DNA from: Pseudolabrys sp.
Lineage (GTDB): Bacteria > Pseudomonadota > Alphaproteobacteria > Rhizobiales > Xanthobacteraceae
Length of the DNA: 64,000 bases
Reading direction: 5' to 3'
Assembly: GCA_017849615.1 (NCBI GenBank)
Contig: JAFIGS010000011.1
Coordinates: 186,001-250,000, forward strand
In this document: one piece after another, positions 8,223 through 30,437 of the stretch
Layout: the number at the start of each line of letters is the position of its first letter
Position numbering within the stretch: position 1 is the stretch's first letter
Notes under the pieces: model-generated
The model's database searches: none
Told to the model about the DNA's origin: nothing
Seen by the model: only the letters and a program-made list of their open reading frames with translations
Translations under genes and position numbers: made by a program

Positions 8223-8276
8223 ACCCCCCTCCCGCCACGCTTCGCGTGGCGACCTCCCCCTCAAGCGGGGAGGTGA
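8221..8276. repeat. Palindromic repeat at the DUF559 start
   Basis: Contains ACGCTTCGCGT, a perfect short hairpin, between CCCCTCCCGCC and CCTCCCCCTCAAGCGGGGAGG. It fills the gap between the pheS stop and the DUF559 start. With 7764-7861, the DUF559 gene is bracketed by repeats on both sides. Confidence 0.55.
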
Positions 8277-8293
8277 AGAGTGGACTTGGCTAA

Positions 8294-9376
8294 TCACGAA
8301 CTCAATCCCCCAGCCAAGGTCGGGAAGTCGAGCGGGCGGAAGCCGTAGTGGTTGAGCCAGCGTACGTCGGCCTCGAAGAAGGCGCGCAGATCGTTGATGC
8401 CGTATTTGAGCATGGCGATGCGATCGATGCCCATACCCCAGGCGAAGCCCTGATAGACGTCGGGATCGAGGCCGCAGTTCTTCAGCACGTTCGGGTGCAC
8501 CATGCCGCAGCCGAGAATCTCCAGCCAGTCATTGCCTTCGCCGAAGCGAATCTCGCCCTTGTCGCGCCGGCACTGGATGTCGACTTCCATCGACGGCTCG
8601 GTGAAAGGGAAGAACGACGGACGGAAACGCATCTTGACGCTGTCGACTTCGAAAAATGCCTTGCAGAACTCCTCGAGAATCCACTTGAGGTGGCCGAGAT
8701 GCGAGCCCTTGTCGATGACCAGGCCCTCGACCTGATGAAACATCGGCGTGTGCGTCTGGTCGCTATCGCTGCGATAGGTGCGGCCGGGGCAGATGACGCG
8801 GATCGGCGGCTGCTTGGTGAGCATGGTGCGCACCTGCACCGGCGATGTGTGCGTGCGCAGCAGCAGGCGCGAACCGTCGGGCTTTGGCGGGAAATAGAAC
8901 GTGTCGTGCATGTCCCGGGCCGGGTGGCCCTCGGGGAAGTTCAGCTTGGTGAAGTTGTAATCGTCGGTCTCGATATCCGGACCTTCGGCGACCGAGAAAC
9001 CCATGTCGGCAAAGATCGCGGTGAGCTCGTCGATCACCTGGCTGATCGGATGGACGCGGCCGGTTTCGGCCTGCGGTTCGCGCAGTGGCAGCGTGACGTC
9101 GACGGTCTCGGAGGCGAGACGCGCGTCGAGCGCGGCGGCGGCGAGGCTTTCCTTGGCGGTGGCGATGGCCGCGCCGACGCGGTCCTTCAGGCCGTTGATC
9201 GCCGGGCCCTTCTCCTTGCGCTCGTCCGGCGTCATCGCGCCGAGCGTTTTCAGGAGCGCCGACACCGAGCCGCTCTTGCCGAGCGCGGATACGCGCACGG
9301 CTTCCAGCGCCGTTTCGTCCCTGGCGGCGCCGATGGCGGCGAGAAGTTCGGACTCGAGTTTAGTGACGTCGGACAT
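8294..9376 (-). CDS. pheS: Phenylalanine-tRNA ligase alpha subunit
   Basis: 360 aa. The N-terminal coiled-coil arm (residues 1-100) binds tRNA. The class II catalytic domain has motif 2 ([21 protein letters not shown]) and motif 3 ([16 protein letters not shown]). It should be transcribed with rplT upstream and pheT downstream, although repeats separate it from both neighbours. Confidence 0.97.
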
Positions 9377-11638: not shown

Positions 11639-12070
11639 GTGACATTCTCGATCAAATTCGCTGGCATCGCGCTGGCTCTGATCTTTGCCGCAGTCGCGCC
11701 CGCGCGGGCGGCGCCGCATGACGGGCAATGGTCCGTGGTGATCATCACCGAAAAAGGCAACTGCGATCAGGCCTATCGCTACGAAGTAGCGGTCGATGAC
11801 GGCAAGCTGAGCTATGCCGGCCGCGAGCAGGTCAGCCTTTCGGGGACTGTCGCCGGTAATGGCGCGGTCAAGGTCAGTATCCGCCTCGGCGAGCAGGGCG
11901 CCACCGGCTCCGGCAAACTGTCCGGCGCGAGCGGCTCCGGCACCTGGCAAGGGACGGGCAACAACGGCGCTGGGAAGCGGAGAAGCGATAACCCGTCTCC
12001 GATCGAAACAAAAAACGCGCCGGTTTTCCGGCGCGTTTTTTTTAATTCGGATCGAGGACCGCTGAATTAA
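11639..12070 (+). CDS. Small secreted protein with an apparently frameshifted C-terminus
   Basis: Starts at a GTG preceded by TGGAGGG. The first 24 residues are a signal peptide ending in ARAAP. The mature part ([22 protein letters not shown] ... LSGTV ... GSGTWQG) resembles small heme/large-subunit-like secreted proteins of Rhizobiales with unknown function. After [10 protein letters not shown] the frame reads KRRSDNPSP and continues through a transcription terminator. In the other frame the bases at 11971-11991 read W-E-A-E-K-R-stop, a plausible ancestral end. So a one-base loss (or two-base gain) near 11965-11971, or a sequencing error, is likely. Confidence 0.55.
12010..12043. terminator. 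Bidirectional intrinsic terminator
   Basis: A perfect 14-base inverted repeat (A6-CGCGCCGG, loop TTTT, CCGGCGCG-T6) with T-runs on both strands. It separates the secreted-protein gene from the convergent infC and can end both transcripts. Confidence 0.9.
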
Positions 12071-12606
12071 CGCGGCGCCAGCAGCATGACCATTTGGCGT
12101 CCTTCGAAGCGCGGTTCCGACTCGACCTTGGAAATCTTGTCGGTGTCTTCCTTCACCCGCTGCAGCAGCTTGTAACCGAGTTCCTGGTGCGCCATTTCGC
12201 GGCCGCGGAAACGCAAGGTGATCTTGACCTTGTCGCCTTCCTCGAAGAACCGCTGCATCGAGCGCATCTTCACCTGGTAATCGTGATCGTCGATCATCGG
12301 GCGGAGCTTGATCTCCTTGATCTCGACGACCTTCTGCTTCTTGCGGGCTTCCGCGGCCTTCTTCTGCGCCTGGAATTTGTATTTGCCGTAATCCAGAATC
12401 TTGGCGACAGGCGGCGTGGAATTCGGGGCGATCTCGACGAGATCAAGCCCGGCCGCCTGGGCTAGCCCAATGGCGGTTTCGGTGGTGACGACACCTTTGT
12501 TTTCACCGGTGGCATCGATCAGCTGAACCTCGCGGGAGCGGATCTCTTCATTGACGCGCGGACCATCCTTCGGGGCGGGCATCGCGGCTTTCATCGGACG
12601 ACGAAT
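12067..12606 (-). CDS. infC: Translation initiation factor IF-3 (AUU start)
   Basis: About 179 aa. It has the IF3-N domain ([17 protein letters not shown]), a Lys-rich linker ([14 protein letters not shown]) and the IF3-C domain ([25 protein letters not shown]). The first ATG is at 12594, but a Shine-Dalgarno AGGAGA lies 8-9 bases before an ATT at 12604-12606 that is in frame (ATT-CGT-CGT-CCG-ATG). IF-3 proteins commonly begin with the residues Arg-Arg-Pro encoded here. An AUU start is the known basis of IF-3 autoregulation, because IF-3 rejects non-canonical starts. The adjacent terminator (12010-12043) ends the gene. Confidence 0.93.
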
Positions 12607-17997: not shown

Positions 17998-19161
17998 TCA
18001 GATATTGCGCCGCTTGTCGTCGTAGCTGTCGTAAAGGATGTCGCGGCTGATGCCGCCGATATCCCTGACGCCGGTGAGCGACATCGACACGCGCAACTCC
18101 TCGCGGATGAGGCCGAGCGCCTTGGCGACGCCTTCCTCACCCATGGCGGCGAGGCCGTAGAGATAGGCGCGGCCGATGAAGCAGCCCTTGGCGCCGAGCG
18201 CGAGCGCCTTGAGCACGTCCTGCCCGCCGCGAATGCCGCTGTCGAGAAACACTTCAAGCCTGTCGCCGACCGCTTCGGCGATGTCCGGCAGCACGGTGAT
18301 GGTGCCTGGCGTGCCGTCGAGCTGACGGCCGCCATGGTTCGACACCACGATGCCGTCGGCCCCTTCATTGGCTGCGAGCTTGGCGTCTTCGGGATCGAGA
18401 ATGCCCTTGATGACCAGCTTGCCGGGCCAGCGCTTGCGCAGCCAGGCGATGTCCTTCCACGACAAGGTCGGATCGAGATTGTCGCCGCCCCAGCGGCCGG
18501 CGGCCCAGATGCCGCCTTTCTTCTTCAGGTAATGGTCGATATTGCCGAACGACTTGCGCTTGCCCATCAGCACGCTGGCGAGCCAGCCGGGCTTCGATAT
18601 AAGGTCGAACACATTGCCCGGCGTGATGCGCGGCGGCACGGTGAGGCCGTTCTTGATGTCGCAATGGCGCTGGCCGCGCATCGGCAGGTCGACGGTGACG
18701 AACAGCGCGGTGCAGCCGGCGGCCTTGGCGCGCTCGACCACTTCCTCGCTGAAGCCGCGATCCTTGAAGACGTAAAGCTGGAACCAGAACGGCCCCTTGA
18801 TCGCCGAGCGGACGTCCTCGATCGAGCAGATCGACATGGTCGAGAGCGTGAAACGGATGCCGGCGGCTTCGGCGGCGCGGGCGGCGAGCATCTCGCCGTC
18901 GCCATGCATCAGCCCGGTGAGGCCGGTCGGCGCGATGGCCACCGGCATCGACACCTCCTCGCCGAGCATCGTCGTTTTCAGATCGCGCGTCGCGGCGTCG
19001 ATCAGCACGCGCTGGCGAAAGCGGATGGCGTTGATGTCGTTGCGGTTGTTGGCGAGCGATAGCTGGTCGTAGGAACCGTGGTCGATATATTCGAAGATCG
19101 CTTTGGGCACCTTGCGCCTAGCAAGCTGGCGCAGGTCTTCGACATTGGTGATGACCGGCAT
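17998..19161 (-). CDS. FMN alpha-hydroxyacid dehydrogenase, LldD type
   Basis: 387 aa. An FMN-dependent TIM-barrel enzyme oxidising L-lactate or a related 2-hydroxyacid. The active-site region IVVSNHGGRQLDGTPGT contains the catalytic His and substrate-binding Arg; IAPTGLTGLMHGDGE and FWFQLYVFKDRGF bind FMN. GCTALFVTVDLPMRGQR is also typical. Sequence alone cannot separate lactate dehydrogenase from glycolate, mandelate or related oxidases. Confidence 0.87.
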   Translation of the reverse strand: MPVITNVEDLRQLARRKVPKAIFEYIDHGSYDQLSLANNRNDINAIRFRQRVLIDAATRDLKTTMLGEEVSMPVAIAPTGLTGLMHGDGEMLAARAAEAAGIRFTLSTMSICSIEDVRSAIKGPFWFQLYVFKDRGFSEEVVERAKAAGCTALFVTVDLPMRGQRHCDIKNGLTVPPRITPGNVFDLISKPGWLASVLMGKRKSFGNIDHYLKKKGGIWAAGRWGGDNLDPTLSWKDIAWLRKRWPGKLVIKGILDPEDAKLAANEGADGIVVSNHGGRQLDGTPGTITVLPDIAEAVGDRLEVFLDSGIRGGQDVLKALALGAKGCFIGRAYLYGLAAMGEEGVAKALGLIREELRVSMSLTGVRDIGGISRDILYDSYDDKRRNI

Positions 19162-20395: not shown

Positions 20396-20482
<87 letters not shown>

Positions 20483-20568
20483 TCATCTCGCGAAACCCTT
20501 GTTTCGCCGCTGCTTTCCTAATTCCTTGGGTTTGAAGCCGCCTCGCTGGTACACAGAGGTGGTGCACA

Positions 20569-22104
20569 ATGATTTGGAGGATGCCCTCGCTCGTGCGGCG
20601 CGACGGTTCGGATGTGAAGTATCTGCGGCAGCGAGTGCCCGCAGACGTGCTTGGGAAGGCCACGGGGATGACCTTGCGCGTTCCCGTCGGGAACGGCGAG
20701 GCGGTCGTGAAGGTCGGCTCAGCGGGCGTCGTAAAGGCGTCTATGCGCACTCACGATCCGGTCGAAGGCAGGGCACGGCTCGCGAAGGCGCAGGCCCACC
20801 TTGAGGCGGTCTGGAAGTCTCTTCGCGAAGGCCCGCAGCATCTAAGTAGACGCCAAGTCAGCGCCCTCGCTGGCGATGCCTATGAGCGTGCGAAGGCGAA
20901 ATGGGAAGACGAACCCGGCCCCGCTCCGATCTGGCAGGTTCTCGGTGAAGCCGCCGAGCGATGGGACGAGAATGCGACCCGCCGTGAGATGGCTCCGTTT
21001 GTCGATGAGCTTCTCCAGCGGCACGCGATGGCGGTGGATGCCGACAGCCGCGACAGGCTTCTGTTCGCGCTTCGGGACGTCTGGCGCGATACCGCCAAGC
21101 TCATGCGTCGCCGCGCAAACAACGATTACGGCCCAGACACTGCGGCAGAGCGAGCGTCGTTGCCGAATGCGGCATCGGTAGCCGGGGGGCAAAAGATCAG
21201 CGATCTGCTGGAGGCGTGGACCAAAGAGGCAAAGGCCACAGACCGGGCTCCTTCGACCATCAACGGCTATCGAGCCGTCATCAATGGCTTCATCGCCTTC
21301 GTCGGCCACGACGACGCTGGACGTGTCACTCCGCACAATGTGGTGGCTTACAAGGACAAGCGCCTCGCAGACGGCATAAGCCCCAAGACGGTCAACGACG
21401 GCGACCTCGTGGCACTCAAATCACTCTTTGGGTGGGCGAAGCGCAATCACCGCGCGTCCGCCAATCCGGCAGAGGGCATCTCCGTAAAGGTTGGAAAGAA
21501 GAAGCGCAGCCGCTCGCCCGGCTATACCGACCAAGAGGCCAAGACCGTATTGGCCGCCGCGCTGGCATACAGCCCGACGAAGCGGGAGCTTGATAAAACC
21601 GCAGCGGCGAAGCGGTGGACACCTTGGCTTGCGGCGTACACGGGGGCCCGAATTGGCGAGCTTGTTCAGCTTCGTCGCGACGACGTGCAACAAAAGGGCA
21701 ACCACTGGGTGATCAGGATTACGCCAGAGGCGGGCACAGTGAAGAACCGAGAGCAGCGCGAGGTGCCGCTTCACCCGCACCTTATCGAACTTGGCTTTGT
21801 GGGGTACGTGCTCGCGCAGAAGGGATATCTGTTTCTCAATGCGAAGAAGCCTGCCGAGGTCTCTGGTAGGCTTCGCGCGGTCAAGAACCGAGTGCGCGAG
21901 TTTGTCAGCGGTGTAGTCGCAGTCGAAGGCTTGGCCCCAAACCATGCGTGGCGTCATCGCTTCATCACGCAGGCCCGCAAGCACGGGCTCGATCCCGAGA
22001 AGCGTCGAATGATCACAGGGCATGCGGGCGAGGGTATCGACGAGCAAGTCTATGGCGAGCCCGAGGGGCTCTACGAAGAGATCGTTAAGCTGCCGCGCTA
22101 CTGA
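20569..22104 (+). CDS. Tyrosine-type integrase
   Basis: 511 aa, next to the tRNA. The N-terminal part (PSLVRRDGSDVKYLRQRVPADV) matches the DUF6538 arm-binding region, followed by a SAM-like core-binding domain (STINGYRAVINGFIAFVG). The catalytic domain carries Arg (AYTGARIGEL, about residue 360), His-x-x-Arg (HAWRHRF, about 458-461), a second His (ITGHAGEG, about 485) and the nucleophile Tyr (DEQVYG, about 494). A complete set of catalytic residues is present. It probably inserts the element at tRNA-Leu. Confidence 0.95.
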   Translation: MIWRMPSLVRRDGSDVKYLRQRVPADVLGKATGMTLRVPVGNGEAVVKVGSAGVVKASMRTHDPVEGRARLAKAQAHLEAVWKSLREGPQHLSRRQVSALAGDAYERAKAKWEDEPGPAPIWQVLGEAAERWDENATRREMAPFVDELLQRHAMAVDADSRDRLLFALRDVWRDTAKLMRRRANNDYGPDTAAERASLPNAASVAGGQKISDLLEAWTKEAKATDRAPSTINGYRAVINGFIAFVGHDDAGRVTPHNVVAYKDKRLADGISPKTVNDGDLVALKSLFGWAKRNHRASANPAEGISVKVGKKKRSRSPGYTDQEAKTVLAAALAYSPTKRELDKTAAAKRWTPWLAAYTGARIGELVQLRRDDVQQKGNHWVIRITPEAGTVKNREQREVPLHPHLIELGFVGYVLAQKGYLFLNAKKPAEVSGRLRAVKNRVREFVSGVVAVEGLAPNHAWRHRFITQARKHGLDPEKRRMITGHAGEGIDEQVYGEPEGLYEEIVKLPRY

Positions 22105-22176
22105 TCTGAGCAGGCCGTTGAAGTCATTGCCCCGCTGCGACTCTCGCGGTTATGCTCTTCCGCAGGAGTTCGTGGG

Positions 22177-23319
22177 ATGCCCGGCGAGCCGAAGCGCAAG
22201 AACAATCATTTTGTTCCGCAAAGCTACTTGAAGCGTTTCAAGTCGGTCAGCGAGAAGCAGGTCGGCCTGTTTAATTTGAAGTCGGGTCTCATTGTTGAGA
22301 CCGCTCCAATCAAAAGCCAGTGCTCTCGCGACTATTTCTATACGAAGAACCCAGTTTTTGAGCAGATGTTTGGAGACTTGGAAGGGCAACACAAGAGGTT
22401 GGTCACCCGGATACTTGAAGAAGATTACGTTCCGGGGCCTCTCAGTAACGATCATCACTCGCTTTTGAGCATGATAATGTTTCAGGCGGGGCGCACCGAG
22501 GCTGTTGTCGCCCATCAAGATCATTTAGCCGACGAGTTCGGTAGGGCTATTATGCGTAAGCACTTTGAAAAGGAACGGAAACACGATCTGCTTGCGTATC
22601 TGGACAAAGTTCGCATTACGATGCCCGACGCGATCTTGGACGCTATTGCTCAGCATCTGTCTATGTATCCGCTTATCAGCGATCTTGATGTTTCGTTGTT
22701 TGTCAATAGAACAGCTGAGGATTTCCTAACCAGTGACCATCCGGTTGCTCGATGCAATAATCTTCCAGCGACCGCCGCGCCTTACGGAGCAAATATTGGC
22801 TTTGCATCGCGCGGTCTTCTTATCCTGATGCCGCTGTCGCCTCGTTCCCTTCTGCTTCTTAGTGACCCCGAGGTATACAATGTCACGAAGCGCTCCGATA
22901 ATGTTGTGCCGCTCACCAAGGTTGATGATGTCGTTGGTCTGAACTTGGCCCAGTGCTTTGAAGCCACTCAGAATTTATACTTCGCCTCTGGGGCGAGAGT
23001 TCAAAGCACTCTGGCTGCGTTCCGCAAGCGCTCTGCGAGCTTGCGCAAGGGCGTGCCGCCATTGACTGAGACCCCGACGGTTATGCCCGATGGGCGAACT
23101 GGCGTTCTGTTTTCGATGGTGCCGCACAACCATCGAATGGCCTTGCCCAAGGCCATCGCGCTACGTCGCGCCGCGCTTACGGGCAAATACCGATGTGGAG
23201 ACGGATTAAGACGTGATCCGGTTCGGGTTGCGTTAGTTAGTGCCGAGCTTGATAGGTTGAAGTCCCGACAAGAAGAGGCGATTAGGAAGGCGGAAGCTAA
23301 TGCGCAAAGTAGTTGTTAG
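22177..23319 (+). CDS. DUF4238 protein
   Basis: 380 aa; ATG with AGGAG upstream. It has the diagnostic N-terminal motif NNHFVPQSYLKRF and the later F-L-T-S-D-H-P-V segment of DUF4238 (residues about 5-270). DUF4238 proteins are often carried by mobile elements and are of unknown function; some are near defence genes. Base use is less GC-rich than the integrase. The next gene follows 12 bases downstream, so they may share an mRNA. Confidence 0.8.
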   Translation: MPGEPKRKNNHFVPQSYLKRFKSVSEKQVGLFNLKSGLIVETAPIKSQCSRDYFYTKNPVFEQMFGDLEGQHKRLVTRILEEDYVPGPLSNDHHSLLSMIMFQAGRTEAVVAHQDHLADEFGRAIMRKHFEKERKHDLLAYLDKVRITMPDAILDAIAQHLSMYPLISDLDVSLFVNRTAEDFLTSDHPVARCNNLPATAAPYGANIGFASRGLLILMPLSPRSLLLLSDPEVYNVTKRSDNVVPLTKVDDVVGLNLAQCFEATQNLYFASGARVQSTLAAFRKRSASLRKGVPPLTETPTVMPDGRTGVLFSMVPHNHRMALPKAIALRRAALTGKYRCGDGLRRDPVRVALVSAELDRLKSRQEEAIRKAEANAQSSC

Positions 23320-23331
23320 GGAGCGTGCGTC

Positions 23332-24270
23332 ATGGGTCCAAATAGCGCGGTTCGCCCTGTGCACTTTGAAGATTTCGACGGCCGTGACTTTGAGCGGTTG
23401 GCGTTTGCTTACCATGTGCGCTCCGGCTGGAGCGATGTGGCGTGGTATGGCGAGGGCGGGTCCGACGCAGGACGGGACATCATCGGAACGGCGACTTCCG
23501 GTGACGCGCCGCCGCGCCGCACTGTTGTTCAATGTGCAAACCGCGACGACCTTACGGTAGCCAAGGTCATCGATGATGTTCGCAAGGCGCTCGCGACAGC
23601 GCCACCGCCGGATGCTTTCCGGTTTATTTGTCGCGGCAAAGTGTCAGCTAAGAAGCGTGACGCACTAGGTCTGGCAGTGAAGGCGCTCGGGGTAGATCAC
23701 TTTGAGGTGTGGTCCGGCGCAGACTTTGAAGAACACCTCAGGCTTTCGGGAGAAGACTTGCTCCGCAGGTTCTGCGCGGGTGAGCACTTCCCTTCCGATG
23801 TCGGGTCGCTTCAAGCGCTTGCCGATGAGTACCCCGGCATCTCCGACGACGCTGCACTTGCGATTATGGCGGCCGTCTTTGATCGCCCTGCCTTCCGCAC
23901 TCCGTTCCGCCAAGAGAGTTCGCTGCCGGATTTCCAGCTAGCCATTGAAGATACGGTCAGGGCCCTCAACACAGGCGTCTGGCGGACCAGAGAGGGCGAC
24001 GAGATACGCCGTATTCCCACGGTGCATTCGCTTCGAGACCCCCAAGTTCGAGCGGCGGCCTCCAGCATTGTTCAAGCGGTTGATGGTTTGCGCCGCCTCT
24101 TCATTGCGAGGCTGAGGGACGGGAGCATTAGACACTGCACATGCGGCGATCAGCGCTGCCCGGTGTTCATGCTCCAACCCGCGACGTGCCGCGAGCTTGA
24201 TGAAGCTCGCGACAAGCTCCTTGAGGGGTTTGGACGAATATACCCGGCCTTTGCCGGGAGGGTGGGCTAA
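23332..24270 (+). CDS. Mrr-like restriction-endonuclease-fold protein
   Basis: 312 aa. Residues about 10-150 look like an Mrr-type PD-(D/E)XK domain: D-F-E-R-L-A, then GEGGSDAGRDIIGT (the Asp of the centre), then VVQCANRDDL, where Mrr proteins have Q-x-K. The Lys is not in the expected place, so it may be inactive or use another residue. The C-terminal part contains HCTCGDQRCPVF, a possible Zn-binding Cys cluster. It directly follows DUF4238. The role is unknown; a DNA-damage or defence function is only a guess. Confidence 0.6.
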   Translation: MGPNSAVRPVHFEDFDGRDFERLAFAYHVRSGWSDVAWYGEGGSDAGRDIIGTATSGDAPPRRTVVQCANRDDLTVAKVIDDVRKALATAPPPDAFRFICRGKVSAKKRDALGLAVKALGVDHFEVWSGADFEEHLRLSGEDLLRRFCAGEHFPSDVGSLQALADEYPGISDDAALAIMAAVFDRPAFRTPFRQESSLPDFQLAIEDTVRALNTGVWRTREGDEIRRIPTVHSLRDPQVRAAASSIVQAVDGLRRLFIARLRDGSIRHCTCGDQRCPVFMLQPATCRELDEARDKLLEGFGRIYPAFAGRVG

Positions 24271-24321
24271 TCCGCCTCGTTAGAAAAACACCGATAGCCA
24301 AGGCCCGGTAGGTTTACCCGC

Positions 24322-25005
24322 TCAAACGCGCAGCCCTGCTCGAACTAGGACCCGCTGAACCTGCACCGCCGTCCACCCGGTTTTGCCGCGCGAGGTGGGT
24401 ATCCGCCGGGCCGTGAGCGCCCTCGCCATTGCTGCCAACGACGTGACGCCCGCCGAATGAAGCTCACGCAACACCGGCCCTAGATCGGCGGCTCTTTCGT
24501 CCGCTCGCTTCGCCATCGTCGCGTGCCCGGCATCTCGCGCCTTACGGCTGAGCCGACTGCCTCGGTCACCGCCGAGCGTCACGCCGCGCCGCTTCGCCGC
24601 TGCCAGCGCCGCCTTAGTCCGCGCTGAGATCATCCGCCGCTCTTCGTCAGCGACCATGGCCATGATCCCGACGGTCAAGCGGTTCGCCATTGGCATGTCA
24701 GCCGCGACGAAGTCGACGCCAGCTTTCTCAAGGCCCAGCAGGAAGTGCGCGTCGCGCGAGAGCCGGTCCAGCTTTGCGATGACCAGCTTCGCTCCGTAGA
24801 CGCGGCATGCCTGTAGGGCGTTCGCCAACTCCGGGCGGTCGCTGCGCTTTCCGCTTTCCACCTCCGTGAACTCTTGGGCGAGGCTCCAACTGCCGCCATT
24901 GAGGAACGCGGCGACGGCGTCCCGTTGCGCCTCCAGCCCGAGCCCGGAGCGGCCCTGCTTCGCGGTCGAAACCCGGTAGTAGGCGACGTAAACCCCTTCG
25001 GCCAT
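24322..25005 (-). CDS. Serine recombinase (resolvase/invertase type)
   Basis: About 227 aa from the Met of MAEGVYVAYYRVST. The N-terminal catalytic domain has Y-Y-R-V-S-T with the nucleophile Ser, the E-S-G-K-R-S-D-R-P motif and IAKLDRLSRDA. A helix-turn-helix-like region follows (AAMARALTARRIPTSRGKTGW). It looks like a small Pin/TnpR-type recombinase. A TTG at 25029 would add 8 residues. Confidence 0.88.
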   Translation of the reverse strand: MAEGVYVAYYRVSTAKQGRSGLGLEAQRDAVAAFLNGGSWSLAQEFTEVESGKRSDRPELANALQACRVYGAKLVIAKLDRLSRDAHFLLGLEKAGVDFVAADMPMANRLTVGIMAMVADEERRMISARTKAALAAAKRRGVTLGGDRGSRLSRKARDAGHATMAKRADERAADLGPVLRELHSAGVTSLAAMARALTARRIPTSRGKTGWTAVQVQRVLVRAGLRV

Positions 25006-25036
25006 TACTGCCGTTCCATTACATTTCAATCAACGA

Positions 25037-25052
25037 ACATTGACACAAATGT
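25037..25052. promoter_or_regulatory. Inverted repeat upstream of the serine recombinase
   Basis: ACATT-GACACA-AATGT lies in the divergent gap just before the serine recombinase start. It could be an operator for the PadR-type regulator or for the recombinase. A -35-like TTGACA on the minus strand is also near. Confidence 0.35.
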
Positions 25053-25081
25053 AATAAAGCGACTGTGCTGTCAAGGGGATG

Positions 25082-25110
25082 TTGACGAGCGCTAACGTTA
25101 TCACTATATA
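25082..25110 (+). promoter_or_regulatory. Sigma-70 promoter of the PadR-type gene with a palindrome in the spacer
   Basis: TTGACG (25082-25087), exactly 17 bases, then TATATA (25105-25110). The spacer contains the perfect palindrome TAACGTTA (25093-25100). This placement would suit an autorepressor. Confidence 0.65.
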
Positions 25111-25209
25111 AGTACCGACTCGAGGTTGGCCGACGTGGGGTCGGTCTGCCGTTCGAGGAGCAAGCAGCTGAGCGGAATGGTCCGCACAGCTTCATCAAGG
25201 AAAGGATGG

Positions 25210-25614
25210 ATGCATGGATTTTCGGAAACGGAACGAGTGACGGAGGGCAATGAGCTGCACGTTCGAACTCTCCACCCGTTCGAACACGCGGTTCTTCTCT
25301 CCGTCTCTCACCTGGGGCCGATGGCGTTCCCTGCCGAGATAACTCGTCGCCTGACAGATGTTCTGCAGCGACGTGTCTCTCTGGCTCAAGTCTTCATCAC
25401 GCTGGAGCGAATGGAAGACAAGGGAATGGTCTCGTCTCAGGACACAAGACCTGAGCCCGTGCGCGGTGGTCGTCGCAGACGTGTCTTCCGCTTGGAAGCG
25501 TCCGGCAAGCACGCGCTCAGTCAGATGGCGGCCACCTATCGCCGGATGTCTTCTCAGCCAGATCGGTTGGAGACCTCCGATGAGAAAGAGCAAGCAATCG
25601 CATCAACCTCGTAA
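25210..25614 (+). CDS. PadR-type transcriptional regulator
   Basis: 134 aa from the ATG at 25210, which follows AAGGAAAGG. The winged-helix core reads HLGPMAFPAEITRRLTDVL, V-F-I-T-L-E-R-M-E-D-K-G-M-V, then GGRRRRVFRLEASGKHAL, a PadR/MarR-like wing and recognition helix. No ligand domain is evident. Other in-frame starts upstream (25126) are possible. The stop overlaps the next gene's start by 35 bases. Confidence 0.75.
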   Translation: MHGFSETERVTEGNELHVRTLHPFEHAVLLSVSHLGPMAFPAEITRRLTDVLQRRVSLAQVFITLERMEDKGMVSSQDTRPEPVRGGRRRRVFRLEASGKHALSQMAATYRRMSSQPDRLETSDEKEQAIASTS

Positions 25615-25852
25615 GTGGTTGTTGCAAGCCTACCGCCTCCTTGCGGCAGGTCGATACGCGGCACTCTGGTTGCCCGAACTGATGCACCTGTACGACCTCG
25701 TCTTGCGGGAGCAAGGGCAGCACGAAGCCGATAAGTTGGTGCTAAACGAAGTGATGGATGCGGTACCTTGGAGCACTTGGCTCCGCTTCTATCGTCTATT
25801 CCGGTTGGCTTACGCTGGCTGGAAGCTTTACCGGAAGATCGCGAAGGACTGA
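25580..25852 (+). CDS. 90-aa protein overlapping the PadR-type gene
   Basis: Starts at ATG 25580 (GGAG about 8 bases before) in a different frame within the padR-like 3' end. Sequence: MRKSKQSHQPRKW..., then LLAAGRYAALWLPELMHLYDLV, and a basic aromatic C-terminus (STWLRFYRLFRLAYAGWKLY). No known domain is recognised. Translational coupling with the regulator is likely. It is followed by an intrinsic terminator, so the pair is an operon. Confidence 0.65.
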   Translation: MRKSKQSHQPRKWLLQAYRLLAAGRYAALWLPELMHLYDLVLREQGQHEADKLVLNEVMDAVPWSTWLRFYRLFRLAYAGWKLYRKIAKD

Positions 25853-25879
25853 GAGGTCTGTTCGTCTTCAACCGACACA

Positions 25880-25917
25880 AGGGGCTAGCGGCGCAATCCG
25901 CTGGCCCTTTCTGTTTT
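25880..25917 (+). terminator. Intrinsic terminator after the PadR operon
   Basis: GGGCTAGCGG (25882-25891), a 6-base loop, CCGCTGGCCC (25898-25907), then TTTCTGTTTTT. One G-T pair. Confidence 0.85.
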
Positions 25918-26167
25918 TAAGTTGGCCGAGTCCTCCCCGCCCCTCTTGATCACTTCGCCGGTCGAAGTCGTGGGGTTGCGGCGTGCCGCTCGTGACTTGC
26001 TCTTTGCGCGGACATTGTTCGGACTGGCAACGACCGGGGGCATGCTCGCTATTGGGCTGCTGGCGGCGACGGGGGAAACCGCTGACAGTTATGTGGTGGA
26101 GGCCCGGCTCAGATTTCTCCACCAACTATCCGGGACCTACTCTCAGCGGCCTGCCTTCCGTCGGTGC
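25918..26167. other. Gap with no convincing gene
   Basis: About 250 bases between the terminator and the convergent GNAT-like gene. There is an open frame on the plus strand (starting near 25922 with a TTG, about 100 codons). It contains a hydrophobic stretch (FGLATTGGMLAIGLLAATG) but has no ATG start, no clear Shine-Dalgarno and no recognisable domain. It may be a remnant or a small membrane protein. Confidence 0.4.
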
Positions 26168-26644
26168 TTACCATTCCACTTCGAACGGCCCGAACGAGGC
26201 ATCCGTTGTACCGATCTCGACTGACGCCGAGGCGCGCCAATGAGCGGGGATGCGGACATCGTAGCCCTTCCTCTGGAGCTTTTGGAACAACGGCTGCACT
26301 TGGTCGGGCACGAACTGGTTGACGAAGAAGCGCAGATTATTGTCAGCGGCGTATTTGATCGCCCGCTGCACGAGCGCGTAGCCGTAACCGCGCCGCGTGT
26401 TCTGGTACTTCGTGCGACCGTCACCGTCGTTCGCGCCGACATAGAGCAATATCAGCTTGTCGTGATTGCGCACCATGCCCATCGTCATGCTCTCGCCAAC
26501 GTGGAAATTCACGGCACGCACATCGCGCCCTTTATGGTCCTTGTAAGGCTCATCCGTAATGCGCACCGCGCGGGCGGCGGGGCTTATGTCGTGAACAGCG
26601 TGAAGGTCGGCAGGCTCGTGTGTCTCGTAGTTCTTAGCAATCAT
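26168..26644 (-). CDS. GNAT-like protein
   Basis: 158 aa from the Met of MIAKNYETHEP. The segment TRRGYGYALVQRAIKYAADN, then LRFFVNQFVPDQVQPLFQKLQRKGYDV, resembles GNAT motif A (R-x-G-x-G) and the following helix-strand. The similarity is short and I am not sure of it. It may be an acetyltransferase of the element. Another 21 codons upstream are possible. Confidence 0.45.
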   Translation of the reverse strand: MIAKNYETHEPADLHAVHDISPAARAVRITDEPYKDHKGRDVRAVNFHVGESMTMGMVRNHDKLILLYVGANDGDGRTKYQNTRRGYGYALVQRAIKYAADNNLRFFVNQFVPDQVQPLFQKLQRKGYDVRIPAHWRASASVEIGTTDASFGPFEVEW

Positions 26645-26817
26645 AGGCGCCTGTGATCTCTGTGTGATTGGACGAAGTTGAAGTCTTGGAAAGATCCGTT
26701 GCAGCAATCGGCGGCAGGGGGTGACGCGACGGACGCGTCACGGAGAGCCGGACGGATTGGACGAATGCCGCGCGAACGCGCGACGGTTCGTGCATGTCGG
26801 GCGGATGCGACAGCGTG

Positions 26818-27285
26818 TCAGCCATCGAGCGCCGCTCTAACCTTCTCCATCGCACTGACGAAGTTCCACGGACGTTTGCGCCCGTTTGCGAACCGGGAGA
26901 TGTCGCATGGCACGGCGTTACGCCGCCGGGCGTTCACTAGGGTGCCGCGTGACATGACGATCACATTGGAGCGGCGCAGATCGAGGTGGTTGCCGTTGCG
27001 AAAGATGACGGCGCGGTCGGGACTGCAATCGATGCCGGTGATGAAGCGGACCACCAGCCGGGTACGCGGCCCATCGACAGCGCGGACGCCGTAACGGCCC
27101 ATCCGCAAGCGCGTGAGTCTGAACCGCTGTAGCAACGCCCAGTCAGCGGCGCACATTACAACCGCAAGACCCGACGGCTCCGATCCCACGGCAACGATGT
27201 CTTCACCGCCGACGATCAGAGACCGCACCTCACCGACGGCAAGCGTCGCGGGAGTGACGACGCCTTCGCCCAGTACGCCGCTCAC
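26818..27285 (-). CDS. HNH/AP2-like protein downstream of the HTH gene
   Basis: 155 aa from a GTG at 27283-27285 whose GTGA overlaps the stop of the upstream HTH gene, so it is translationally coupled. C-terminal part: DCSPDRAVIFRNGNHLDLRRSNVIVMS, the N-x-x-D-x-R-x-x-N-L pattern of homing-endonuclease-like HNH/AP2 proteins, but I do not see the His pair of a full HNH centre. A longer start at 27384 would read into the HTH gene. The function is unknown. Confidence 0.55.
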   Translation of the reverse strand: MSGVLGEGVVTPATLAVGEVRSLIVGGEDIVAVGSEPSGLAVVMCAADWALLQRFRLTRLRMGRYGVRAVDGPRTRLVVRFITGIDCSPDRAVIFRNGNHLDLRRSNVIVMSRGTLVNARRRNAVPCDISRFANGRKRPWNFVSAMEKVRAALDG

Positions 27286-27530
27286 GCCAGCATCTCCCGG
27301 CGGACGCGAGCGTGCAGCAGCGAGAGCCGCCACGCGGTCGGGGCAACCAAGCCGGAGTTCAATAGCCGTGCCTTCCAACGGCACGCAGTGGCCTTGTCGA
27401 CTCCATAGGCGGAGGCGATCTCTGTCAGCGAGACGAACTCGCCAGCGCGGACGCGGGCGAGCATCTCGGGAAGAACGATGTCGAGATCGAGCCGGGCTGA
27501 TACCTGGCTCTGTGATGTCTTAGTTTGCAT
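27282..27530 (-). CDS. Small helix-turn-helix protein
   Basis: 82 aa from ATG 27530 with AAGGAT upstream. The core (FVSLTEIASAYGVDKATACRWKARLLNSGLV) is a typical helix-turn-helix. It starts 5 bases after the helicase-like gene stops and overlaps the HNH-like gene. The gene order suggests that it regulates replication or excision of the element. Confidence 0.65.
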   Translation of the reverse strand: MQTKTSQSQVSARLDLDIVLPEMLARVRAGEFVSLTEIASAYGVDKATACRWKARLLNSGLVAPTAWRLSLLHARVRREMLA

Positions 27531-27535
27531 GATCC

Positions 27536-29431
27536 TTAGTTCTCGTTGCCGAAGTACATGGCGTAGGCGCGTGCGAAGCCAATCGGACGCTGTGGCGGCC
27601 ATTCCACAATGCCTTGTTCCGCGATGACCTCGGCGAACTCAGCGTGGTGACGGATGCTGCGATTGAAGTTGGCGGCGTTGCCGACGCCGATGTGTTGCCG
27701 CACCGCCGAGAACGGCACCGACTGTGCTCCGTCCGCGAGGGTGTCGATGATGAAGCGCGTAGCGTCCCCTGCCTTACCCTTGAGGGCCCGCTGTACGGGC
27801 CGCCACGGCACTACGTTGACGCCCGGAAAGATCACCGGAAGTTGCTCCCCGATGCCCGACCTGCTGCTGGCGATAATGTATGCGTCGACCTTTGGGCAGG
27901 ACGCGCCATTGCACTTGCGGACAGCGCCCCGGCAGAGGGCTTGCAGGATGACGTGACGGTGCTCGCCTAGCTCGACATCCTTGATGTCTTGCGCGGGCAT
28001 GTCGCCGGCAGCTGAGGGCTTGCCAGCGGCAGCGCGGCCGAGCGCCTCGTAATACGACGGCGGGAAAAACAGCGTCCCGGCAAGGATCACGTTGGGGATA
28101 TGCGCGAAGTCGTTCGTCGCCTCGTGAGCACCCCAGTTGAGGAAGTGAACATCGCCCGTGCGGACCTTGTCGAGGCGGCTGCGCACCGCCGTCTCGGTGT
28201 CGGTGCCCTTGTGGAAGACGACAAGCCACGGCTCATCAGGCTTGGCGTTGACGGTGTTCGCGATGCCGTCCGCGAGGTCATCGCGATCCCTTCCCCGGAA
28301 CGCGGCCTTGCCTCCACCCCGCCTCCAGAGATGGATTGTAAGCGGGCTGTAGTTCTTCGGCGCTTCGGGGAGGCGGACGACCCCGCCCCGGTGGTCAGCC
28401 CATAGGCGATACGTAGCGCGCACCTGCTCGCGAGACGACGCGTCAAGAACGAGCAGTGGCGTGAGACCGGCGGGCAGTGTCTCTTTGTAGTCGAGGATTG
28501 TGGTGCCGTATTTGCCATCACGCCGGACCGTCACGACGCGACCGAACAGGAACCAAAGGGAGCTAATGGCCTCGCGACGCTCAGGCCGCTCGTCGGCACC
28601 GGTCGCATTCAGCGCTGTGGTCATGTCGACGCCGTGAACGGCGACAAGGTCGGGGACGAGGAACGACGAACCGTCGGCGACGCCTTCTAGCTCGCTGTTC
28701 ATTCGGTCGAGGGCAGCGGCGAGCGCCGGGTGCGGACCACGAAGCGGCTTCAGGAGCAACGACACGTCGTCGCGCGACAGCGTCATGGCGCGGCCCGGAA
28801 CGATTGCTTCGTCCCAGACCCGCACGTCCCGTGGACGACCGCGATAGTGGAACTCACCCACGTCCGGGAACGGACGACCTTCGCAGCGGCTCTCAACCAT
28901 GCTGTGCGTCGTGAAGAGCACACGAGCGCTCCGGGGATCGCCGGTGCCGAGCTTGTTCAGCGCAGTGTCGGAGGTGAAGACGGCGAAGTCGGCGTTGCTG
29001 AGACCAGCGTCGCGGATGAAGTCCTCAATCTGTCGCTTGCGGCCAGCGCAGACCAACAGCGACACGCCTTCATGGGCGTCGGATTGCAACAGCGCACGGG
29101 TGAAGTGCGAGACGGCCTGTGTCTTCCCGATACCCGGATCGAGGCTGGCAAGGTGGACGGCGGGAGCGGCGCGGCCATCGGCCATCGCCTCCAACGTGTT
29201 GGCGACCGCCGTAAGTGCGTTCCACATCTCGGGAGATGGGCGGTGGTTCTTGGCGTCGAAGAAAGCGCGGAGACTGTGAGTGGTCGCGGCGGCGAGCGGA
29301 CCAGCCGGGGTAGTCAAAACATGTAAGGAAGGCTCTTCTCTACGTAACTTGACTACTTCTACAACGGGCTTGGTCGGGTAGCACGGGGCGTTCAGCCCCG
29401 AGGATGTCGGGTCAGCTATAATAGCGTGCAT
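27536..29431 (-). CDS. Element helicase-like P-loop NTPase
   Basis: 631 aa. Walker A DPGIGKTQAV at about residues 98-107, a DEA(x)-type Walker B VRVWDEAIV at about 203-211, and a later P-L-L-V-L-D-A-S segment. The C-terminal part has a winged-helix-like region (SVPFSAVRQHIGVGNAANFNRSIRHHAEF). The fold is closest to superfamily 2 DEAD-like helicases, although motifs V-VI are not clear. It probably replicates the element. The repeats at 29514-29796 are immediately upstream. The Shine-Dalgarno of the ATG is weak (CAGAGAC), so the start may be elsewhere. Confidence 0.65.
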   Translation of the reverse strand: MHAIIADPTSSGLNAPCYPTKPVVEVVKLRREEPSLHVLTTPAGPLAAATTHSLRAFFDAKNHRPSPEMWNALTAVANTLEAMADGRAAPAVHLASLDPGIGKTQAVSHFTRALLQSDAHEGVSLLVCAGRKRQIEDFIRDAGLSNADFAVFTSDTALNKLGTGDPRSARVLFTTHSMVESRCEGRPFPDVGEFHYRGRPRDVRVWDEAIVPGRAMTLSRDDVSLLLKPLRGPHPALAAALDRMNSELEGVADGSSFLVPDLVAVHGVDMTTALNATGADERPERREAISSLWFLFGRVVTVRRDGKYGTTILDYKETLPAGLTPLLVLDASSREQVRATYRLWADHRGGVVRLPEAPKNYSPLTIHLWRRGGGKAAFRGRDRDDLADGIANTVNAKPDEPWLVVFHKGTDTETAVRSRLDKVRTGDVHFLNWGAHEATNDFAHIPNVILAGTLFFPPSYYEALGRAAAGKPSAAGDMPAQDIKDVELGEHRHVILQALCRGAVRKCNGASCPKVDAYIIASSRSGIGEQLPVIFPGVNVVPWRPVQRALKGKAGDATRFIIDTLADGAQSVPFSAVRQHIGVGNAANFNRSIRHHAEFAEVIAEQGIVEWPPQRPIGFARAYAMYFGNEN

Positions 29432-29513
29432 GTCTCTGGGTATGCGTGGGTGGGTATCCCCAAGAGGGCCCGTCCAGAACGGCGGGAGCGACCCGTCACG
29501 GGGCCTTCAAGGG

Positions 29514-29796
29514 GATGGTTCTTGTTAGGGTGGTCCCTTATCTCGCAACGGCGGTTGCACCGTCCGCGAAAGATGGTTCTGTGTAAGAGTGCACCCTAAT
29601 TCCAGCACCCTCAGAGGGCCATTCTCGAGTCCGCTCAGCGGATTTTTGAGGGTGTCGGGGACCGGGCCTCGCGGAAGCTTGCCGAACGCATCAGCGAGCC
29701 CCGCAGAGGACCTAGCGCGAGTCATAATAGGGAAACGTCACGGGGCACGTAGTCAGCGCCAGGGCTAGATGGTCCTATGTTAGAGTGGGCCCTAAT
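29514..29796 (-). repeat. Three 28-29-bp repeats with internal palindromes
   Basis: Copies at 29514-29541, 29572-29600 and 29768-29796, all in the same orientation. Each starts GATGGT and ends in a TTAG-like...CCCT(A/T)AT sequence; copies 2 and 3 share 24 of 29 bases. The second half of each is an imperfect palindrome (for example TTAGAG-TGGG-CCCTAA). They could be iterons (a replication origin) or operators of the helicase-like gene. Confidence 0.6.
29606..29654. repeat. Nested inverted repeat
   Basis: CACCCTCA (29606-29613) and TGAGGGTG (29647-29654) enclose TCCGCT-C-AGCGGA. It lies between the second and third 28-29-bp repeats. It could be an origin hairpin or a weak terminator. Confidence 0.45.
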
Positions 29797-29847
29797 GCAC
29801 CGAAGGGTGCGGACGGCAGCGCGCAACCGCCGCCCGCCTCCTCGATC

Positions 29848-30180
29848 CTAAGGGGCCGCCGGATAGCGCCGCGCCAAAAGCACTTCGGGATACGCCCGCT
29901 CGTACTCAACGCCAAGCGCGGCCAAGGCCGGGCAAGCCCTTACCAAGACCTCAGGAACATCCCGAGCAGCGATGAGGCTTTGCAGCTTGGCGTCTTCTTC
30001 TCGAAGCGTTGCGAAAGGGTCCGCCATTAGCCCTAGCGCGGGGCGCTCTTCGACCGCCCACCACGTCGCGACGGTTGACCATCCGGCAGGCGCGGAGGTG
30101 ATGAGGCTAGCGGGATCGACGGTGTTGAAGACGACGAAGCCTTCTGTGGCGTTCGCTTGGTTTTCGTAGCTGAGCGGCAT
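29848..30180 (-). CDS. 110-aa element protein
   Basis: Starts with the Met of MPLSYENQANATEGFVVFN, preceded by AAAGGGAC. No recognised domain. The last 40 residues are helical and charged. The longer frame from 30285 extends into the promoter region. It lies between the repeats and attR and may be the first gene of the leftward transcript. Confidence 0.5.
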   Translation of the reverse strand: MPLSYENQANATEGFVVFNTVDPASLITSAPAGWSTVATWWAVEERPALGLMADPFATLREEDAKLQSLIAARDVPEVLVRACPALAALGVEYERAYPEVLLARRYPAAP

Positions 30181-30419
30181 TCTTACGGTCCCTTTGGAGA
30201 TGATTGCCGAACGTAGACTGTCTACGATTGGCAGGAGGGACGACCCTTCGTCAGGCTCGCAGTTGGGTTCAGCGCCGTCAATCACATCGGTCTTGCTTCC
30301 ACTCGTCAGAACAGCCCACGTATTTTGGTTTGCATTAGGTCACGGCAGTGGTACACAGCGCGGCAAGAGACGGTCTAAAACCCTAACAGTTACAGCATCT
30401 TGCCTTGGCTGGGGCGCGT

Positions 30420-30437
30420 TCCTTTCCTGGGCACCAT
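30420..30437 (+). repeat. Right attachment site (attR core)
   Basis: Exact copy of the 18-bp tRNA-Leu 3' sequence at 20466-20483. The tRNA body is absent here, so this is the end of the element. Downstream chromosomal sequence begins with a GCGCC-TTGA-GGCGC hairpin (30463-30476), which may be the original tRNA terminator. Confidence 0.9.

Follow-up and report, generated by a model that had tools for sequence, protein, structure and literature searches.

Phage satellites, among them PICMI, PICI, cf-PICI, P4-like and PLE elements, are small chromosomal elements with a site-specific integrase, a replication gene of their own and, in some cases, defence genes (PMC10803314, available portion). The same portion also names the tycheposons and VEIMEs, which are described from Prochlorococcus and other taxa; according to the accessible text of PMC10872708, tycheposons measure 4-200 kbp, border on a tRNA gene and combine a tyrosine recombinase with variable cargo. 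At the tmRNA (transfer-messenger RNA) site of Pseudomonas fluorescens SBW25, the islands I23, I44 and I55, captured by that strain and associated with a 14-bp direct repeat, encode a tyrosine integrase and putative phage defence but no genes for autonomous transfer, and I55 was moved by a jumbo phage (PMC12595487, available portion). These are the closest kinds to the subject of this work, an element of 9,954 bp (repeat to repeat) in the tRNA-Leu(CAG) gene of a Pseudolabrys genome. It lies in a stretch of 64,000 nucleotides (GCA_017849615.1, contig JAFIGS010000011.1, positions 186,001 to 250,000), here called the window, whose numbering is used throughout except where a locus handle (L) precedes the coordinates.

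The element belongs to a broad known kind, that of small, satellite-like or hitchhiking integrative islands, and differs from each of these systems in its details. PICMI elements are recognised by an integrase, AlpA, Fis and a DUF3987/DUF5906 primase (PMC10803314, available portion). Ten open reading frames (ORFs) of the window element, the larger ones, were scanned against Pfam, PHROGs, NCBIfam and PADLOC, and of these four hallmarks only the integrase was found. Unlike the phage satellites, the element thus has no AlpA, Fis or such primase, its replication-type gene is an XPD/DinG-like helicase, and no helper phage is known for it. The likeness to tycheposons and VEIMEs concerns the tRNA border, the tyrosine recombinase and the variable cargo. 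The SBW25 islands carry AlpA and use another site, and the available part of PMC12595487 does not mention this helicase. Based on the evidence below, we put the probability at about 0.65 that the element is one of a set marked by the same helicase, which inserted itself by means of its tyrosine integrase, is copied through the helicase and relies on a helper for transfer.

Insertion at tRNA-Leu(CAG)

The 18-bp direct repeat TCCTTTCCTGGGCACCAT occurs in exact copies at 20466-20483 and 30420-30437 (both on the plus strand), and the match extends by not even one base on either side. These are its only two copies in the whole genome of 4,396,131 bases, in which the reversed pattern, used as a control, was not found. 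The exact repeat at both ends claimed in an earlier note, which had been made on this DNA from the letters alone, is therefore confirmed. As ARAGORN ends the tRNA-Leu(CAG) gene (20396..20482, plus strand; Rfam RF00005 at 20396-20479) at position 20482, the left copy consists of the final 17 bases of the tRNA plus one, and the target gene stays intact. Only 86 bp past the tRNA end starts a tyrosine integrase of 511 aa with a DUF6538 N-terminus (20569..22104, plus strand), which matches PF00589 above the cut-off (E 6.9e-09), PF20172 and PHROG 1 (E 3e-37). These matches bear out the adjacent integrase of the earlier note; its catalytic residues (ARIGEL, HAWRHRF and GHAG...VYG) were read by eye against what we take to be the characteristic motifs. 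An integrase beside a tRNA gene and a far-end repeat of the tRNA 3' end are together the mark of a site-specific tRNA element. The G+C content of the element is 61.0%, against 64.8% in the remaining window, and an Rfam scan of the element returned no RNA besides the tRNA. The stretch 20466-30437 is an integrated mobile element in tRNA-Leu(CAG), with the 18-bp repeats as attL and attR, its attachment (att) sites.

The earlier note had proposed a search for empty sites in related genomes, and these exist. The gene after the element, presumably rnd (RNase D-like), was located in 42 of 43 genomes of the genus, and 29 loci from other genomes were compared. In 26 of them tRNA-Leu(CAG) lies within 1.5 kb upstream of rnd, with a gap of 15-173 bp where the window has 10,083 bp. 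The core CCTGGGCACCA is single on the tRNA strand in the stretch examined of each empty locus, so that a repeat on both sides of the empty site, named beforehand as evidence against insertion, was not found. When six empty loci were aligned, the left flank of the window was 81-98% identical to them and the right flank 80-91% over the longest piece, which starts no more than about 50 bp from the tRNA end; the exception is L005, where the longest right-flank piece begins at a greater distance and the start is covered by a 77% piece. In L024 the contig begins 151 bp before rnd and the tRNA region is cut off, and L025/L049 showed no tRNA in the roughly 14 kb examined. Of the 42 other genomes in the genus, 4 gave a match to element DNA, each time only inside the serine recombinase (up to six candidates scored per genome). 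Conservation of the genes between the repeats in all close relatives, the second finding that would have spoken against an insertion, was thus not seen either. The att sites and the empty sites together demonstrate insertion at the tRNA.

One congener (L010/L048) holds another element in the same tRNA-Leu(CAG), of 5,127 bp with a 21-bp repeat (L048 13233-18447). It has in common with the window element a serine recombinase (75% identical in amino acids, opposite orientation) and an integrase of 34% identity, and has no helicase.

The helicase and the elements it marks

The gene by which we define the set (27536..29431, minus strand) encodes 631 aa and gave no informative family match (SOCS_box at E 0.18 in Pfam, nothing at E 0.1 in PHROGs, NCBIfam or PADLOC). 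Alignment with 25 relatives revealed invariant G100, G102, K103, W206-D207-E208, D330-A331-S332, Q497, R501 and R505. The AlphaFold2 model built from this alignment has a mean pLDDT of 88.4 and a pTM of 0.83, and Foldseek ranks XPD and DinG helicases first among PDB structures (best 3crw, XPD; E 3.8e-13, TM 0.42/0.51, rmsd 8.6), with DEAD-box helicases and SecA next. Among predicted viral proteins, the first rank goes to a putative ATP-dependent helicase of Sinorhizobium phage phiM9 and the following ones are mostly unnamed. At E <= 0.01, 5 of the 26 members match ResIII and one matches Herpes_ori_bp. Given the Walker A and DExx motifs and this fold match, the protein models as a superfamily-2 helicase of XPD/DinG type, a likeness that covers the helicase core and not the whole protein; in its last 86 residues the model has helices and then two strands, an order like that of a winged helix. 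The helicase-like gene of the earlier note is therefore real and supported by the fold model. A sequence search for solved helicase relatives returned six matches, the best at E 0.089 and most of them to RNA polymerase subunits, which we judged to be chance and rejected.

Two relatives carry the helicase fused to a primase region. In a metagenome-assembled genome (MAG) of Rhodoplanes piscinae (L044/L072), a single ORF of 932 aa has RepB_primase and PriCT_2 at its start and the helicase at its C-terminus, and in a Mesorhizobium locus (L067) tblastn matched the primase region in one 917-aa open frame shared with the helicase. The primase part is missing from the window protein. These fusions are the main argument for a replication role, and the 631-aa protein probably serves a family of small integrative elements as their replication helicase.

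Occurrence of the helicase gene is sporadic and scattered over the Alphaproteobacteria. It was found in 1 of 43 genomes of the genus, in 9 of 391 of the family (6 strong) and, at E <= 1e-10, in 14 of 397 of the order (7 above 400 bits), with at most three candidates scored per family or order genome; the fused L044 protein, used as query, matched 2 of 289 class genomes, its own among them. A single-protein query of genome contigs found no relative, and a search with the alignment found 29 loci, 26 of them alphaproteobacterial by record title; the titles of the remaining three refer to Geomonas and to one MAG each of Gammaproteobacteria and Flavobacteriaceae. Alphaproteobacterial genera with helicase-marked loci include Bradyrhizobium, Mesorhizobium, Azospirillum, Ruegeria and Microvirga. 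No match was obtained in 50,697 phage records, and IMG/VR viral contigs yielded no locus in a first scan and one (L099) in a second. Only 2 of 72,556 plasmid records contain the gene, both of them very large plasmids, the Ruegeria TM1040 megaplasmid and Azospirillum p1.

These plasmid locations, the small size of the element and the lack of recognised transfer genes would suit an integrative mobilizable element, conjugated through an origin of transfer (oriT) that a helper relaxase recognises. We consider this improbable, as Pfam found no relaxase family among the ten ORFs, a scan of proteins only in which oriT was not looked for. Presence in just one genome of the genus would in turn agree with a decaying genomic island, immobile, with integrase and att sites as relics and a helicase retained for defence or DNA repair; helicases of related kinds do occur in defence systems. 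Decay is nevertheless unlikely, given that integrase, recombinase and helicase all have intact ORFs, the att repeats are identical, the helicase recurs beside integrases that differ in their best-matching query integrase (by tblastn, without a tree) and two relatives carry the primase fusion. The identical repeats and intact integrase ORF are also consistent with the suggestion in the earlier note that the element may still excise.

Counted once each, the helicase-marked loci number 38: the 29 from the contig search, L041, L042, L052, L053, L099, L120-L122 and the window. L040, L043 and L044 duplicate L056, L060 and L072, L050 and L108-L109 stand outside the count, and distant homologues (L037-L039/L045-L047, of which two were aligned and are 21-23% identical) and weak matches (L113-L119) were left out. 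Integrases and serine recombinases were sought in the relatives by tblastn at E <= 1e-4 (1e-3 for L099) within the stretch examined, and 11 of the 38 helicase matches lie less than 2.5 kb from a contig end, which limits the counts. An integrase was found in 26 loci, in some cases weak or several kb off (L058, L064, L079, L122). A serine recombinase was present in just 14, so it is not a defining gene, and we rejected it as an essential partner.

The helicase lies between direct repeats in 14 of the 38 loci, in elements of 5.5-16.5 kb that occupy ten kinds of tRNA gene or the end of a protein gene. Besides the window element (9,954 bp, Leu-CAG), these are L042 (8,131 bp) and L075 (8,612 bp), both at Thr-GGT, L080 (16,534 bp, Thr-TGT), L072 (7,162 bp, Ala-CGC), L074 (5,763 bp, Ala-GGC), L052 (12,753 bp) and L081 (5,497 bp, helicase match partial), both at Phe, L053 (7,190 bp, Gln-TTG), L057 (10,724 bp, Arg-CCG), L059 (11,484 bp, Val-CAC), L067 (8,170 bp, Val-GAC), L120 (11,106 bp, Leu-CAG) and L061 of Azospirillum melinis. 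The last measures 10,310 bp and sits at the end of a protein gene, which we take to be glutamine synthetase, with a 51-bp repeat at 8247-8296 and 18557-18607. L063 ends at a 14-bp att copy on the contig end and was left out of the bounded count. We propose to recognise the set by an integrase and an XPD/DinG-like helicase enclosed by att repeats, a combination that the window element has. In a comparison of 12 elements, 11 are lower in G+C than their flanks, the exception being L052; one of the 12 (L048) is without the helicase. Loci from single-contig genomes, added as a test once the pattern had been seen, passed in one of two testable cases: L120 fits the pattern, again at tRNA-Leu(CAG), and L121 has a tRNA-Pro near the helicase but neither an integrase nor a direct repeat. 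A third locus added with them, L122, breaks off at the helicase.

The earlier note knew of no description of such an element from this group. Elements with the same helicase recur over the Alphaproteobacteria, so the window copy is no one-off and any novelty would lie in the set, which may be new; we put forward this helicase-marked family of small integrative elements as a proposal. No description of elements marked by this helicase was found in the literature, including the available portions of PMC10872708, PMC10803314, PMC11389934 and PMC12595487, in a search mostly without subscription papers and without the original tycheposon paper. The helicase gives a means of finding hitchhiking islands that are nearly absent from collections of phages and plasmids.

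In six relatives, inverted repeats of 82-86 bp, 100% identical (98.8% in L082), flank the integrase gene and overlap the 3' end of the tRNA: L052 101-185/1359-1443, L063 12047-12132/13303-13388, L065 2618-2699/3876-3957, L081 5532-5617/6788-6873, L082 9557-9640/10820-10903 and L120 12188-12269/13443-13524. Five of the six are Rhodobacterales by title, the order being presumed for some. The arrangement looks as if the integrase cassette might flip. Longer inverted repeats surround the inner part of two elements, 1,148 bp at 100% identity in L052 (1427-2574 and 11723-12870) and 2,316 bp at 99.96% in L063 (1-2316 and 9745-12060), where each copy holds a helicase gene.

Proposed mode of propagation

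From these features we infer a course that takes in excision, the replication role of the helicase, an origin, resolution, defence and transfer. The integrase would recombine attL with attR to release a circle, leaving the tRNA whole. The helicase would open this circle, perhaps at a palindrome cluster adjoining its gene, by way of its C-terminal winged-helix-like region, and host replication proteins would then copy the opened circle. The serine recombinase may resolve circle multimers, the Mrr-type and DUF4238 cargo might repay the host by phage defence, and new cells would be reached through a helper, be it a phage, a gene transfer agent or a conjugative element.

Several results weigh against this scheme. 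The circular form, replication and transfer are reasoned from the features above, not observed. The match to XPD is limited to the core (TM about 0.4-0.5, rmsd 8.6), and no primase was recognised among the ten ORFs of the window copy. For the C-terminal region no PDB fold matched at E <= 0.001, and the label 'winged-helix-like' is therefore based on the way helices and strands succeed one another and on weak matches. A serine recombinase was not found in 24 of the 38 loci. No direct repeat was detected at the tRNA-adjacent loci L041, L060, L082, L099 and L121, nor on the cut contigs L065, L066 and L073 at the tRNA beside the helicase or integrase; the main scan covered the region downstream of each tRNA only, and tRNAs distant from element ends gave no repeat. 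The window copy does not exceed its six shuffles in 14-mer repeat count, and the imperfect 16-bp palindrome that makes up the proposed cluster was found upstream of the helicase in none of 17 relatives at up to 2 mismatches.

In the window this palindrome occupies three places on the plus strand, at 29525..29540 (a candidate origin or operator), 29584..29599 and 29780..29795, where 0.18 would be expected, for a pattern written after the copies had been seen. The repeat region of the earlier note is thus present here and not found in the helicase upstream regions of relatives; at 3 mismatches, L054, L059 and L061 give one match each. Among the 17 relatives only L064 and L067 beat their shuffles in 14-mer repeat count, by other sequences. 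Iterons as a feature common to the set were rejected on the palindrome result, which also lowered our confidence in the scheme above and in the satellite-family reading considered below. The palindromes are retained as a candidate origin or operator, and the origin is the weakest part of the mechanism.

Part of the same evidence would suit a phage satellite, excised on induction by a helper phage, replicated by the helicase and packaged in helper capsids. The element fits the general satellite plan (PMC10803314, available portion) in being small, in occupying a specific site and in carrying an integrase, a replication-type gene and candidate defence cargo. The 11.5-kb tRNA-Val element L059 carries a T7 gp14-type internal virion protein, and in L099 a tRNA-Arg (12065-12141) lies between the helicase relative and a phage-like block of genes, which was recognised by eye; a direct repeat of the tRNA-Arg end was not found there. 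The ten ORFs, however, include no structural phage gene by PHROG (capsid, terminase, portal or tail), no packaging family and no AlpA or Fis, and the helicase is missing from phage records and rare in IMG/VR. That the element has no phage structural or conjugation genes, as the earlier note stated, holds for the ten ORFs scanned; its likening to a satellite is not borne out, with neither a helper nor a packaging site nor a capsid gene found here. A satellite seems to us a possible but rather unlikely explanation. We are about as doubtful of a broader version, in which the elements would be self-replicating, helper-dependent alphaproteobacterial satellites of a family so far unrecognised, using an origin-binding XPD/DinG-like helicase to start replication and both capturing and exchanging defence genes of their hosts at many tRNA sites; we know of no use of this helicase branch in origin-binding replication start. 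The observation in the earlier note is confirmed, and its interpretation as a whole is supported in part.

Further genes and cargo

After the integrase comes a DUF4238 protein of 380 aa (22177..23319, plus strand; PF14022 E 1.3e-34), a probable cargo gene, followed by a Mrr-type restriction-endonuclease-like protein of 312 aa (23332..24270, plus strand; PADLOC PDC-M58A E 8.4e-07), a candidate defence cargo whose PF04471 match (E 7.6e-05) scores 23.2 bits against a cut-off of 21. The 235-aa serine recombinase (24322..25029, minus strand) is of resolvase/invertase type (PF00239 E 9.9e-28; PHROG 125 DNA invertase E 3.9e-30). Both it and the Mrr-type gene had been left out of the earlier note. An inverted repeat with 8-bp arms at the recombinase start (25019..25054), read from the sequence, is a candidate resolution or operator site; the region upstream of the recombinase is not conserved in L048. 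A second serine recombinase elsewhere in the same genome (L097, G000:C9:3532-4233) is 60% identical and has a stop within the matched stretch.

A PadR-like transcriptional regulator of 162 aa follows (25126..25614, plus strand; PF03551 E 1.5e-06), its end overlapped in another frame by a possible 90-aa ORF (25580-25852). On the minus strand lie a 179-aa protein with a very weak GNAT resemblance (26168..26707; PF00583 E 0.11, below cut-off), a 188-aa protein without a family match in the four libraries (26818..27384) and a 106-aa ORF that overlaps both neighbours (27282..27602). The helix-turn-helix gene of the earlier note corresponds to a match in this last ORF that is present but weak (HTH_23 E 8.8e-05, below its cut-off), and the ORF may not be a gene as listed, since the codon model drops it. 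Between the palindromes and attR, a 145-aa protein on the minus strand (29848..30285) belongs to no clear family, with PHROG matches at just E 0.025 and 0.061.

Cargo in the relatives was surveyed with 55 chosen proteins, including some whose loci have no established ends (L040, L041, L043) and two that belong to the helicase-less L048. The 25 best-represented families, of 46 in Pfam and of 422 in PADLOC, include type I restriction-modification, DNA methyltransferases, a CAP12/Pycsar TIR domain, NO VEIN and AAA domains, and a type I restriction system is annotated in the Ruegeria TM1040 element. Since some elements carry restriction or defence genes, they are a possible route for the spread of defence systems. 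The virion protein of L059 (13983-14525) lies inside the repeats of its tRNA-Val element, in a MAG labelled Gammaproteobacteria, and is matched at E 5.3e-22 in Pfam and E 2e-11 by PHROG 805.

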